A DNA stretch of 64,000 nt from Toxonevra muliebris (lineage: Eukaryota > Arthropoda > Insecta > Diptera > Pallopteridae), in assembly GCA_963691655.1 (NCBI GenBank), contig CAVNUY010000017.1:62001-126000 (forward strand), in the 5' to 3' direction. The position numbers and the translations under genes are program-made. The notes beneath the pieces were generated by a model that saw only the letters and a list, made by a program, of their open reading frames with translations, did no database searches and had not been told where the DNA came from. Shown in pieces: positions 33,453 through 37,835 of this stretch (within the stretch, counting starts at the first letter, position 1; each line of letters begins with the position of its first letter).

Positions 33453-33863
33453 TGTTGGAACGAGTTCCAACTAATGCATTTTCTTATGTTTTTCTATCGC
33501 TGTTATGTTTGCTTATGTTAACCTTGTCCATGCGTCAAGCATATTTTAAATTACTCTCAAAACAAATTCAGCTTTGATTGCGTGCGGTTGAAAAACGTGG
33601 ACTTCACTTTATATTTTCTTTTGCTGTGTGTGGAATTTTTTGAATAGAAAAAAACATCTTATATTTATTTACAAAAATTTGTAAAGAAATGTGAAAACAA
33701 TTTGTACAAAAGTGAGCTTTAACGTATCGCATTGTTAAAAACGAAAAGACTGCAATAAATAACAAAGAAAAACGTGAACGATTTCTCATAAACAAGCGAA
33801 TTCGAATTAAAAAAATAAAATCCCAAAGATTATTATTTTTGTGTGGTACGTGTGTGCTAAACA
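33453..33863 (+). repeat. Left LTR of the ovo unit
   Basis: 411 bp from TGTTGGAACG to GCTAAACA. It has an AATAAA near its centre-right and a terminal dyad TTGGAAC-GA-GTTCCAA. Oriented away from its normal position relative to ovo: it lies downstream of ovo in antisense. Confidence 0.85.
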
Positions 33864-34725
33864 AATTATTAACAATATTCATTGTTTTAAAATTTATTTG
33901 CTATTTAATTAAAATGATTTTTTCTCTTTTCCGTGTAATATTTAAACAAAATGTACATGATTCAACTTATATAAGTAGGAGTTAGGGGTAGTGGTAAAAA
34001 AAATTTGAAAAATTAATAATTTGCCTTCAAAATTGAGTGCAGGGTAGCAGCAGCGCGAAATAAAATGAATACAATCTTTAAATATTTCGTATGCGGTACT
34101 AAATTTTTCTTAAGTTGATGCTATGATTAATAATAAAAATAGTAATATTACATTTGTTTATAAAACATTATTAAATATGTACGTGTACGTACGCATATAT
34201 ATTCATAAATTGTATATATGAAGAAGATATGAACAAGTGAAGCTTATATGTAAACTATACAAAATCATTGGAAATGTGTAGTTGTAGTGCTAGAAATTCA
34301 GTAAGGCGCAAAGAAAATTTAACTTAAAATGACTTCAAACTTATGAATGAGTAAAAAAAAGAACTTAATGATTTAATTGTTATACAAAGAAAATACATAT
34401 TTCCAGTAATTTCATATTTCAATCAACACTTTTGCTGTTTTTCTTTGTTTTTGTAAGTGTTTTAATTATTCAATAATTTGAGCGGCAAAAAATTAATTAT
34501 TCTTTTTCCATCTTTTCTTTAAATTTAAAATAACGCGAGAAACTTAAAAGCAATATATATTTCGGTACATATGCTTTAAAAAATTGTAAATACAGGAAAA
34601 AATAATCTCCAACTGAGGGCAGTTTTCAAAAACAAAAAGAAGATATTTGCAGTGGGAACAGTTTTCAAATAGCTGAAAGAGGTGGTTTTGTTTCGTAGTT
34701 ACGCCGTTTTCTATTTTCTTTTCAA
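33864..34725 (-). other. ovo 3' flank / 3' UTR inside the unit
   Basis: AT-rich sequence downstream of the ovo stop. An AATAAA-like signal lies near the left LTR border (minus strand), but no poly-A tract separates it from the LTR. The 3' end was therefore not captured as a polyadenylated tail, or the tail was lost. Confidence 0.5.
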
Positions 34726-36705
34726 TTATGTACCGGCATCGGCAGTTCCCAAAAGATTGTTAGCAAATTGTGAGTTTGTAAATTTAAAATGACGCTTATC
34801 GTACAATTTCGCAGGTGAATAAGGATGATTTTCCTTCAGGTGTATATAATGCACCTCAGGTTCGCAGGTGGTGTGACCACATTCCTCACAAACGTACATC
34901 TTAGCTCTTCGCTCCTTGTATGTATATTGATGTTGCACGCTGTGCACCTTCAGGCAGTGCGACTCTAGCGAACAACGTTGCGTGAAACTCTTCTCGCACA
35001 AATTACACTTGTATGGACGCACTCCGGTATGTGTGCGCGTATGTCGCTTCAAATCGAATGTGTCATTGAAACCTTTGCCACAAAATGTGCACAGATAACG
35101 TTTGATTTCGGAATGACATTTCATGTGACGATTAAGTAAACGCTGTAGTGTAAATGATTTCAAGCAAATGCGACAAACAAATTTTGAAGTGCTGCCATCG
35201 GTAATTTCACCAATATCCGTGCCACTTTGTGAGCTGCTGCTGCACCCACTGCCGCTACCTCCACTACCACCGCCGCCACCCTTTTTCAAATCATCAACAC
35301 AATCAATGCTGCGTATGCGATGATGTCCCGAATGTGTATTCTCAACAGTAAGTGGATTTTTAATGCCATGCCCTCCGTTGACAAATTCCAATTGTACTTC
35401 TGGTGGTAGGCCCAAGCTTTGAATGAGAGGTTTGGCATCGAGCATAGCCGCTGCAGTATCGAGTAAACCGGATGTAGAGGCACCCGATGAATTACTCGCC
35501 GCTGATGACATCGGATGATGGGCGAATATTTGTGCTGCATTTGGCGAAGGCAGCGATAAATTGCTGTTATCGCTGTTGATATGATGATGATGTTGTTGCA
35601 TGCTGTGATGAGTTGGTGGCACAACATGATGCTGTTGTTGCTGCTGATGTTGTTGTTGATGATGGTGATGCTGTTGTTGCGAATGACCGTATGGACTATG
35701 CTGCTGATATGAATGTTGTGATTGCTGTTGGTGCTGTTGCGTTAGTAGTAGCGGAGAAGCATGTGCCATAAGTGAATTTTGCTGATGTTGGTGCTGCTGC
35801 TGTTGATAGGAGGAATGTTGTTGCTGCTGCATTTGCATTAAATCGCGTGTTGCATGTTGATACGATGGAGGTGGCTGTTGTTGCTGATGGTTGGCAACAT
35901 GTTGCTGTGAATTATTGATATGCTGCTGATTGTTATTTGAAAGATGTTGTTGTTGGCGATCGAACGAAGAGTAAGCCTGCGAATTATTGCAGTTTTGATT
36001 GTTGCCGATATGATTACGCGAAATGTTGTTAGTAATTTGCTGGATAAGACTTTCGTGGAAAGAGTCCAAATTGTTGGACGGGTTACTGCCCTCTACCGGT
36101 GTAATGGACACTGAGTCCGGTGTCAACGATGGCGTAGAAACTAATTCGAAATCTTGTCGCGGGCTTGTCGAGTTCTCATCGTCAACGCATTCACGTTGCA
36201 AAAACGAACTTAAATCTACAGCGTCCGAAAATTGTTCCAGCAAATTATCCGTCTGCGAACTGAGCATGAGTGTAGCAGTAAACTGAAGTGAGTTGGAATC
36301 TACTGAACCATTGGGACCCTGGGAGTTGGCCAGATCAGACATAATGGCATCCTCGTACGCAGATGCGTTGAAACTCCCCGAATTTCCCATGGTTGCTTGA
36401 ATGATGTTCTGCGCAAAAGCGCCAATATCGATCTTTGCTTCATCATACTCTATATCCGGCTCGCCCTTCAAAATGATACCATATGCCTGGCCATTGGCGA
36501 ATGTCGTGATCTCTAAACCACCGTTTCCCCCACCACCAATACCATTGCCTACCGTCGTCGAGGAACAGTCCAAAAAATTATTCTGCTGCTGTTGCTGGCT
36601 GGAGCCAACACCACCACTACCACCTGCAGCCATAAGATATGCCGCAGCAGCTGCATTTTGTAAAAGAAAATTCGAATTCCCGTTGAAATTCAAAGAAGAC
36701 GATGA
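34726..36705 (-). CDS. ovo: OVO/Shavenbaby-like zinc-finger transcription factor, captured copy
   Basis: One open frame follows the in-frame TAG at 36706-36708 and ends at TAA near 34726. It encodes the conserved [14 protein letters not shown] region, an acidic segment ([16 protein letters not shown]), long Gln/His tracts (about residues 210-370), a Gly/Ser linker and four C2H2 zinc fingers (about residues 505-622 of 655). Fingers: [30 protein letters not shown] and YVCEECGH, with all Cys and His ligands present. The [17 protein letters not shown] motif is diagnostic for the OVO family. OVO controls germline sex differentiation and epidermal differentiation in flies. There is no intron in this half, although the Drosophila gene has introns here, which suggests a retrocopy. 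The first ATG after the stop is the Met of YLMAAGG. Whether it is expressed is unknown. Confidence 0.88.
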
Positions 36706-37167
36706 CTAATTCATTGTGTTGCCACCTTTCAAACTCTCGTAAAAAGGTGGCAATGCACCAGAGGGCGGTGAATTGGGACCGTAATTGCTACGACCGTCTC
36801 GTCCTCCACCCCTTCCGCCACCAGCACCGTCGCTACCGCTTCCGCCAAGTGCTCCACCGAATCCTGTTGGTGAACCTGCACCACCACTAGGATTTTGATT
36901 GCCGCTAGCGCCTACGCTGCCGCTACCAAAACCGTTAGCGACCTGAAAACTCTGTCCAGCTCCTGTTGACGACGTTCTTCCGTGACCAGCGGCCGCTGCC
37001 AAAAATCCATGAAGATTACGCACTAAACGTGGATTAAGACGCGCCTGTGCTAGGATGGCACGAGCTAAAATTGCGCGACGACGTGCTTCACGCTGCTTAC
37101 GTTTAGCATTCAATGCTTCTGCCTGTTGATGCTGCAGAAACTCCCCGAATTTCCCATCCTGCAGATG
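36706..37167 (-). pseudogene. ovo: Upstream OVO segment ending in TAG
   Basis: The same reading frame as the zinc-finger part, separated only by TAG at 36706-36708. It encodes a strongly basic Arg/Ala/Leu segment (AKRKQREARRRAILARAILA), a Gly/Ser-rich stretch and PPFYESLKGGN. The frame is open back to a TGA at 37168-37170. A CTGCAG|GAT sequence at 37158-37164 resembles a 3' splice acceptor, so upstream DNA may be intron. A 21-bp sequence (37137-37157) is identical to one in the main ovo frame (36370-36390) but is read in another phase. Confidence 0.65.
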
Positions 37168-37423
37168 TCAGTCTTTAATATAAAATTTCCCATCGCAGTA
37201 GCATCAAAATGCCATTTTCCGCTACACATTATAAACAAAATCCCACAAAAACTCCCAAATAAAAAAACAGCCTATTCTCGAAAAGAAATCCCCTTGAAAA
37301 TTTACAATAGGGCTGCTAGTAATGTTTGCCTACCAAAAACAAAATATTTGGACAACTATGAGCATATGTACAGTGTCGGACAAAACTAAAGCACGAACTC
37401 TTCCCTGTCAACATTAAGTTCAA
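37168..37423. other. Spacer between right LTR and ovo
   Basis: About 255 bp with no long frame on the ovo strand. It may be ovo intron or upstream sequence captured with the gene. The bases adjoining the LTR (TTGAACTTAATG, minus strand) do not resemble the TGGTCCTTCGAGCC that follows the other BEL LTRs here. Confidence 0.45.
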
Positions 37424-37835
37424 TGTTTAGCACACACGTACCACACAAAAATAACAATCTTTGGGATTTTATTTTTTTAATTCGAATTCGCTTGTTTATG
37501 AGAAATCGTTCACGTTTTTTCTTTGTTATTTATTGCAGTCTTTTCGTTTTTAACAATGCGATACGTTAAAGCTCACTTTTGTACAAATTGTTTTCACATT
37601 TCTTTACAAATTTTTGTAAAAAAATATAAGATTTTTTTTTCTATTCAAAAAATTCCACACACAGCAAAAGAAAATATAAAGTGAAGTCCACGTTTTTCAA
37701 CCGCAGGCAATCAAAGCTGAATTTGTTTTGAGAGTAATTTAAAATATGCTTGACGCATGGACAAGGTTAGCATAAGCAAACATAACAGCGATAGAAAAAC
37801 ATAAGAAAATGCATTAGTTGGAACTCGTTTCAACA
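37424..37835 (-). repeat. Right LTR of the ovo unit, sense to ovo
   Basis: 412 bp; differs from the left LTR by about six substitutions and one A-run indel. In minus-strand orientation it runs TGTTGAAACG to GCTAAACA directly upstream of ovo, so its promoter, if active, would transcribe ovo in sense. Confidence 0.85.

Follow-up and report, generated by a model that had tools for sequence, protein, structure and literature searches.

The described retrocopies of cellular messenger RNAs (mRNAs) attributed to long terminal repeat (LTR) elements are, as far as is known, placed between LTRs in direct orientation, and such LTR-mediated retroposition has reportedly been documented by Tan et al. (2016) in Drosophila and other animals. 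Inverted LTRs characterize the DIRS-type elements, which use a tyrosine recombinase and leave no target duplication. Herein, a copy of the developmental gene ovo enclosed by two inverted LTR-like arms is described from the fly Toxonevra muliebris. This ovo unit occupies positions 33453-37835 of a stretch of 64,000 nucleotides (C15:62001-126000, termed the window, whose numbering is used throughout). The genome searched was the 491 Mb assembly, with contigs labelled C1, C2, C3 and so on; because only the best candidates of each whole-genome search were scored, all genomic counts given below are lower bounds.

In the review passages devoted to LTR-mediated retroposition of mRNA, the copies lie between direct LTRs (PMC5408686, PMC8232201). 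The ovo unit shares with these a spliced mRNA as template, its copying by an LTR element, probably with template switches, the LTR-type ends and the integrase-type duplication, while it departs from them in its inverted arms, in having the unique 3' (U3) end of an LTR at both outer ends, and in an LTR-like arm that is chimeric with a third locus. The unit is a novel form of LTR-mediated retroposition and does not constitute a new element family. BEL/Pao retrotransposons resemble the unit in terminus, 5-bp duplication, LTR end (TAAACA) and arm length (411/412 against 413 bp), but the unit lacks gag/pol, primer binding site (PBS) and polypurine tract (PPT), its repeats are inverted, and about 305 bp of each arm are foreign. 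The Ty1-dependent retrosequences of yeast, which include processed pseudogenes as well as cDNA captured at breaks and rearrangements, are comparable in that an LTR element reverse-transcribes cellular RNAs and the product enters the genome, whereas inverted ends of the double-U3 type are not mentioned in the part of that account dealing with them (PMC7175516). Pack-TIR transposons, as far as the relevant passages go, likewise hold gene fragments between terminal inverted repeats and show microhomology; they have captured genomic DNA including parts of introns (PMC8277862), in contrast with the spliced mRNA and the LTR termini of the ovo unit. A DIRS element, similar in its inverted terminal repeats, was rejected, since the unit has BEL ends and a 5-bp target duplication, and every open reading frame (ORF) of 150 aa or more within it either belongs to ovo or overlaps an ovo frame. 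The literature search returned no title or abstract opening on a retrocopy between inverted LTRs; subscription journals lay mostly outside its coverage, and absence is not claimed.

The left arm (33453-33863, + strand) is constructed of a U3 part, a segment of contig C3 and TAAACA, and the same chimeric repeat returns inverted as the right arm (37424-37835, - strand), with its C3 part at about 37426-37736 and its U3 part at about 37732-37835. Aligned with each other, the arms of 411 and 412 bp are distinguished by a 1-bp indel and by six substitutions over 411 columns (1.46%), in agreement with the initial annotation, which had reported inverted, nearly identical arms of these lengths, about 1.5% divergent and hence recent. 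Each arm starts on its outer side with TGTTGRAACGAGTTCC (first letters TGTTG), and the homology ends inward at GCTAAACA on both sides, beyond which the sequences are unrelated. The claimed perfect 5-bp duplication, GATAT, was found at 33448-33452 and 37836-37840, and two independent LTR insertions are ruled out by this single duplication around the entire unit. The empty target reported within the window is equally sound: in a paralogous block, block A, the two flanks of the unit, once joined, align unbroken across GATAT at 25945-25949, so that the vacant site is real, and since block A does not contain the unit, the insertion is most simply placed after the block duplication. A third paralogous block (about 42108) matches the right flank only, its left side being rearranged; identity between the paralogous flanks amounts to 98.2-98.5%. 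A BEL-like element is represented in this part of the window by three paralogous pieces in succession, with insertions (13773-16723/25446-26904, 31121-39652 and 39648-43945), which show about 96-99% identity where the alignment is best.

On sequence criteria, the outer ends of the unit are BEL/Pao U3 ends. The terminus at 33453-33556 (+ strand) is identical at 103 of 104 positions to an LTR on contig C1 (L044, 28.71 Mb), and positions 1-109 of the arm, or most of them, have 37 further genomic matches (best 99%) among the best 40 of 63 candidates. With up to two mismatches, the outer 16-mer occurs nine times in the window against 0.48 expected in shuffles, comprising the two arms, five resident BEL-type LTR starts (15909, 16724, 31947, 41066 and 48379) and two weaker matches. 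Among 27 terminus loci read, the start pattern was present in 26 and a recognisable LTR end in 24. The LTRs of this donor family measure 369-417 bp, start with TGTTG and end with AATTAAACA; the PBS TGGTCCTTCGAGCCGGAT follows, and the PPT GTGCAAGGGGGCCGCCA precedes, 8 of the 26 LTRs read in each case. Perfect 5-bp duplications flank eight of nine solo LTRs (the ninth is off by one base) and all six readable LTR pairs, two of which share one flank and are thus not independent. Between two donor-type LTRs of the one element tested, a Pao peptidase was recognized (2.4e-45), the integrase and reverse-transcriptase matches of this element remaining below their cut-offs. The BEL-type ends and the retroviral-type integration proposed initially are supported by the PBS, PPT, duplications and, from one element, Pao-type pol of the donor family.

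The boundary of the unit coincides exactly with the LTR start expected from PPT priming. Searched as an exact 25-mer, the terminus gave 38 genomic matches, and the reversed control pattern gave none. When neighbouring exact copies within 20 kb were paired, nine of ten pairs had a single orientation and the only inverted one was the ovo unit. The two U3-type outer ends recognized in the initial annotation, and its view of the arrangement as unfamiliar, are likewise supported. Genome-wide, the terminus occurs in direct and in solo LTRs, with Pao pol between two of them, as the search proposed for direct copies with BEL pol had been meant to reveal, and not as the terminal inverted repeats of a transposase-bearing DNA transposon, the outcome once set against this interpretation. 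Separately, two BEL elements with LTRs 3.7 kb and 10 kb apart lie at C1:143369396-143393433 (L026-L029) and share 22-bp flanks on each side, including CTGTC; they probably represent a duplicated insertion locus with different interiors.

The attribution of the whole 411-bp repeat to a BEL LTR family was not supported, since only about 104 bp belong to that LTR. Among the best 40 of 63 candidates, the entire composite arm was seen in the ovo unit only, for which reason a pre-existing LTR family of this sequence was rejected, and arm positions of about 100-409 (33552-33860, + strand) matched, with 98% identity, a single genomic place, C3:73097547-73097857, perhaps the 5' untranslated region (UTR) of a + strand gene. 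The U3 part (about 104 bp) and the C3 segment (about 305 bp) meet at the common word TACTyTCAAA, as fits template switching. At the inner end, the C3 locus reads GCTAAAGAAATT (TAAAGA) where both arms read GCTAAACA, while BEL LTRs end with TTAAACA, and the terminal TAAACA of the arm is identical to that end. At the left arm, the ovo sequence has this ACA too; at the right arm, the C derives from neither of the neighbouring pieces, the C3 segment and a segment of contig C2. We take the final CA as an LTR end, by which the arm would be a chimeric LTR of nearly normal length; its 411/412 bp stand beside 413 bp in the closest donor-type LTR (L004), though about 305 bp are unrelated. For the C3 segment, an initiator-like motif was noted, and a + strand ORF, without a Pfam match, lies about 5 kb downstream. 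About 4 kb from the segment, on the opposite strand, a histone-fold protein is encoded (L050:9137-9829, C3:73092637-73093329; Pfam Histone, 4.3e-17), which we take to be CENP-A-like.

The enclosed gene was identified as ovo by 218 proteins at E<=0.001, headed by the Ovo proteins of Bactrocera, Anastrepha and Teleopsis. The copy (33861-37127, - strand) is a spliced cDNA running from the 3'UTR, about 30 nt past AATAAA, to the codon region ...QAEALNAKR, and is 5'-truncated. Its parent on C1 (L041), to which unit positions 409-3675 match in pieces, bears introns and none of the lesions of the copy; the comparison of the 3' part was made with L041 only. Three GT-AG introns of the parent (77, 1482 and 125 bp) are precisely absent, which requires an RNA template, and a further 80-bp difference in the 3'UTR, devoid of splice signals, is taken as a plain indel. 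Over 3263 aligned positions, 38 substitutions (1.16%) separate copy and parent, the codon changes being 15 nonsynonymous, 11 synonymous and one stop, an in-frame TAG at 36706-36708 where the parent has TCG. Together with a 2-bp deletion at approximately 34740-34750, which frameshifts the last Ovo residues, and a lost Met, this stop marks the copy as a pseudogene; a functional paralogue, or an intact frame under selection, is ruled out by these lesions and the codon changes. The initial annotation had called the ovo copy mobilised. Its identification of the gene stands, but a repeatedly moving unit is not supported, for one copy was found, it is dead, and its parent on C1 retains the introns; with 35300-37423 as query, ovo was found at two places in the genome, unit and parent.

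Inward of the right arm, two other pieces adjoin the retrocopy. The first, at 37137-37157 (- strand), is a second copy of 21 nt of ovo, the MGNSGSF codons also present at 36370-36390. The second, at 37164-37424 (- strand), is a 260-bp segment 98% identical to C2:62217757-62218016, a stretch that precedes the start codon of a short, weakly ATG2-like ORF by about 170 bp. Its sense agrees with that of ovo within the unit, and from position and sense the segment is read as a putative Atg2 5'UTR. The last ~60 bp of the segment recur at at least 36 other genomic places among the best 40 of 824 candidates. A 431-aa frame about 10 kb downstream, considered as further Atg2, was dropped for lack of a Pfam match.

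The divergences from the respective sources (ovo 1.16%, Atg2 segment 1.92%, C3 segment 1.6-2.3%, U3 1.0-2.9%) suggest that all pieces are of similar age. Polarised against the sources, with one column at the outgroup seam set aside, the derived differences amount to five substitutions in the right arm and, in the left, to the indel plus a single substitution, while four differences from the C3 locus are common to both. Such derived changes confined to one arm, along with the four shared ones, fit a single event that gave rise to two identical arms.

The LTR termini and the 5-bp duplication point to an LTR-element integrase, and BEL-mediated retroposition of a template-switched cDNA is, as such, very probable. 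The fuller account, that of a mosaic mRNA retrocopy produced once by the BEL/Pao machinery and then integrated by the BEL integrase, is favoured with moderate confidence; the parts are directly visible in the locus, whereas the exact strand order is what we infer, and it is held only tentatively, at somewhat under even chances. According to this account, a tRNA-primed minus strand would have copied the last nucleotides of the unique 5' (U5) region (TGTTTA), passed to a C3 transcript by a switch at TAAA and, by another at TACTyTCAAA, entered the U3 of BEL RNA; the product would be a chimeric LTR, TGTT...AAACA. PPT-primed plus strands of this chimera would then yield LTR DNA of about 411 nt. One LTR strand could, through its ACA-3' end, have paired with a UGU in the 3' end of the ovo mRNA, about 30 nt past AATAAA, and so have primed copying toward the ovo 5' end, with a jump to ovo again and then into the Atg2 5'UTR. 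The shared sense of ovo and the Atg2 segment in the unit speaks for the account. An end-to-end jump from the template end onto a second LTR strand would make both outer ends U3, and BEL integrase would join these two ends to a staggered cut at GATAT, after which the ovo copy would have decayed as a pseudogene. This scheme with two LTR strands is preferred because it accounts for both arms ending exactly at the LTR end.

A second retrocopy in the same nest of insertions also counts in favour of the mosaic retrocopy account, as it stands beside an antisense BEL LTR. The sequence 16724-25445 in block A is another insertion, not present in block B. It opens with a BEL-type LTR of about 432 bp, represented by at least 12 near-full-length genomic copies (95-96%), including three pairs 3.4-3.6 kb apart. 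There follow a 42-bp piece found inverted inside such BEL elements, 138 bp common to contig C12, a poly(A)-like stretch not in the parent, and a spliced, frameshifted, antisense P450 cDNA from which four introns of 57-64 bp are absent. Further exon-like pieces correspond to C2:43593955-43594376, C2:43681455-43681507 and C2:43687254-43687497, and a non-LTR element interrupts the unit where two source pieces overlap by 10 bp. The polarity is that of the ovo unit (LTR sense, mRNA antisense, 3' end toward the LTR), but the P450 unit has a single LTR, no clean duplication, and an LTR that does not abut the mRNA. A broader and rather unlikely proposal is that BEL LTR DNA serves as a primer and adapter, its free U5-side 3' end priming at the 3' ends of cellular mRNAs, by which host cDNAs gain antisense LTRs. 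If true, cDNAs capped in this way at both ends would become double-U3 units accepted by the integrase, and genes of flies could have been retroposed repeatedly by this overlooked route, the ovo and P450 copies both standing beside a BEL LTR with that polarity. The inverted BEL interior piece between LTR and mRNA in the P450 unit lowers this proposal.

Several observations weigh against the reconstruction of the ovo unit as a mosaic BEL retrocopy. The same interior piece deprives direct LTR priming of support from the P450 case. Poly(A) is absent from the ovo copy, neither arm is followed by a PBS, and homology at the inner junctions extends over just 1-3 nt. The final CA argues for an LTR end at the right arm only, where a single C is otherwise unexplained. 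Transcription of the C3 segment is deduced from the initiator-like motif and the downstream ORF, and the ATG2 match of the short C2 ORF is weak, its 3.5e-05 not reaching the curated cut-off. For the fillers beside the 21-nt piece, TGCAG and TGCAGCATC, no source emerged when nine short words were sought in L041 (ovo sense strand), in both strands of L043 and in the + strand of L042. The 21-nt piece and the Atg2 segment share the word ATGGGAAATT, but at a distance of about 25 nt from their join, so that it does not explain the switch. Finally, the end-to-end jump needs two LTR strands within one particle.

The main rival, unlikely though it is, is a snap-back of the plus strand onto its own arm. 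A minus strand would run from the ovo 3' end through the 21 nt of ovo, Atg2, C3 and the BEL U3 by template switching; the 3' end of the PPT-primed plus strand (...TTTGT) would then fold back on ACA at the C3/Atg2 junction and copy its own 5' arm, giving a panhandle that resembles copy-back defective genomes. The common polarity of ovo and the Atg2 segment on that strand, the complementarity between the ovo 3' end (TGT) and the arm end (ACA), and the identity of the arms at birth, here from a single molecule, are all accommodated. However, ACA is presumably frequent in a 4-kb AT-rich strand, so that only chance would place the fold within 3 nt of the C3/Atg2 junction, and neither C3 nor Atg2 provides the C of GCTAAACA, whereas the LTR end does supply it.

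A chromosomal patchwork, in which genomic BEL LTR ends received their fillers by break repair or by fork stalling and template switching, a route proposed for Pack-TIR elements, is improbable. It would agree with the presence of several short pieces that stem from different contigs and meet at short homologies, and passages on DNA transposons describe such fillers (PMC8277862), yet the clean 5-bp duplication, the uninterrupted paralogous site and the exact intron removal require RNA and integrase steps, and the composite arm is present at both ends. A chimeric cDNA or mis-join of library or assembly is very improbable: the unit does lie on a repeat-rich contig of 185 kb (C15), but a perfect duplication, independent mutations in each arm and pieces 1-2% diverged from their sources are unexpected in a recent laboratory chimera. 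Capture of ovo by a DNA transposon whose terminal inverted repeats measure 411 bp, to which the inverted ends and the 5-bp duplication might point, is largely refuted and scarcely credible, as the terminus is the U3 start of LTRs with Pao pol between two of them, no second inverted pair within 20 kb exists among its 38 exact copies, and the arm itself is chimeric.

A single young insertion thus keeps the junctions of aberrant BEL reverse transcription in a form that can be compared with the source loci. Under the mosaic retrocopy account, it indicates that a DNA bearing U3 at both ends may be inserted by BEL integrase and that an LTR may itself take up foreign sequence. LTR-primed copying of mRNA becomes testable through antisense LTR-mRNA junctions, and retrocopy searches restricted to direct LTRs miss copies of this sort.

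Elsewhere in the window, a non-LTR retrotransposon with long open frames is present in two copies (1926-5516 and 21348-24933) that are 99.4% identical over 3.59 kb, which suggests recent activity. A perfect tandem duplication of 87 bp was found at 48833-49003, and a tandem-repeat array at 57190-58126.

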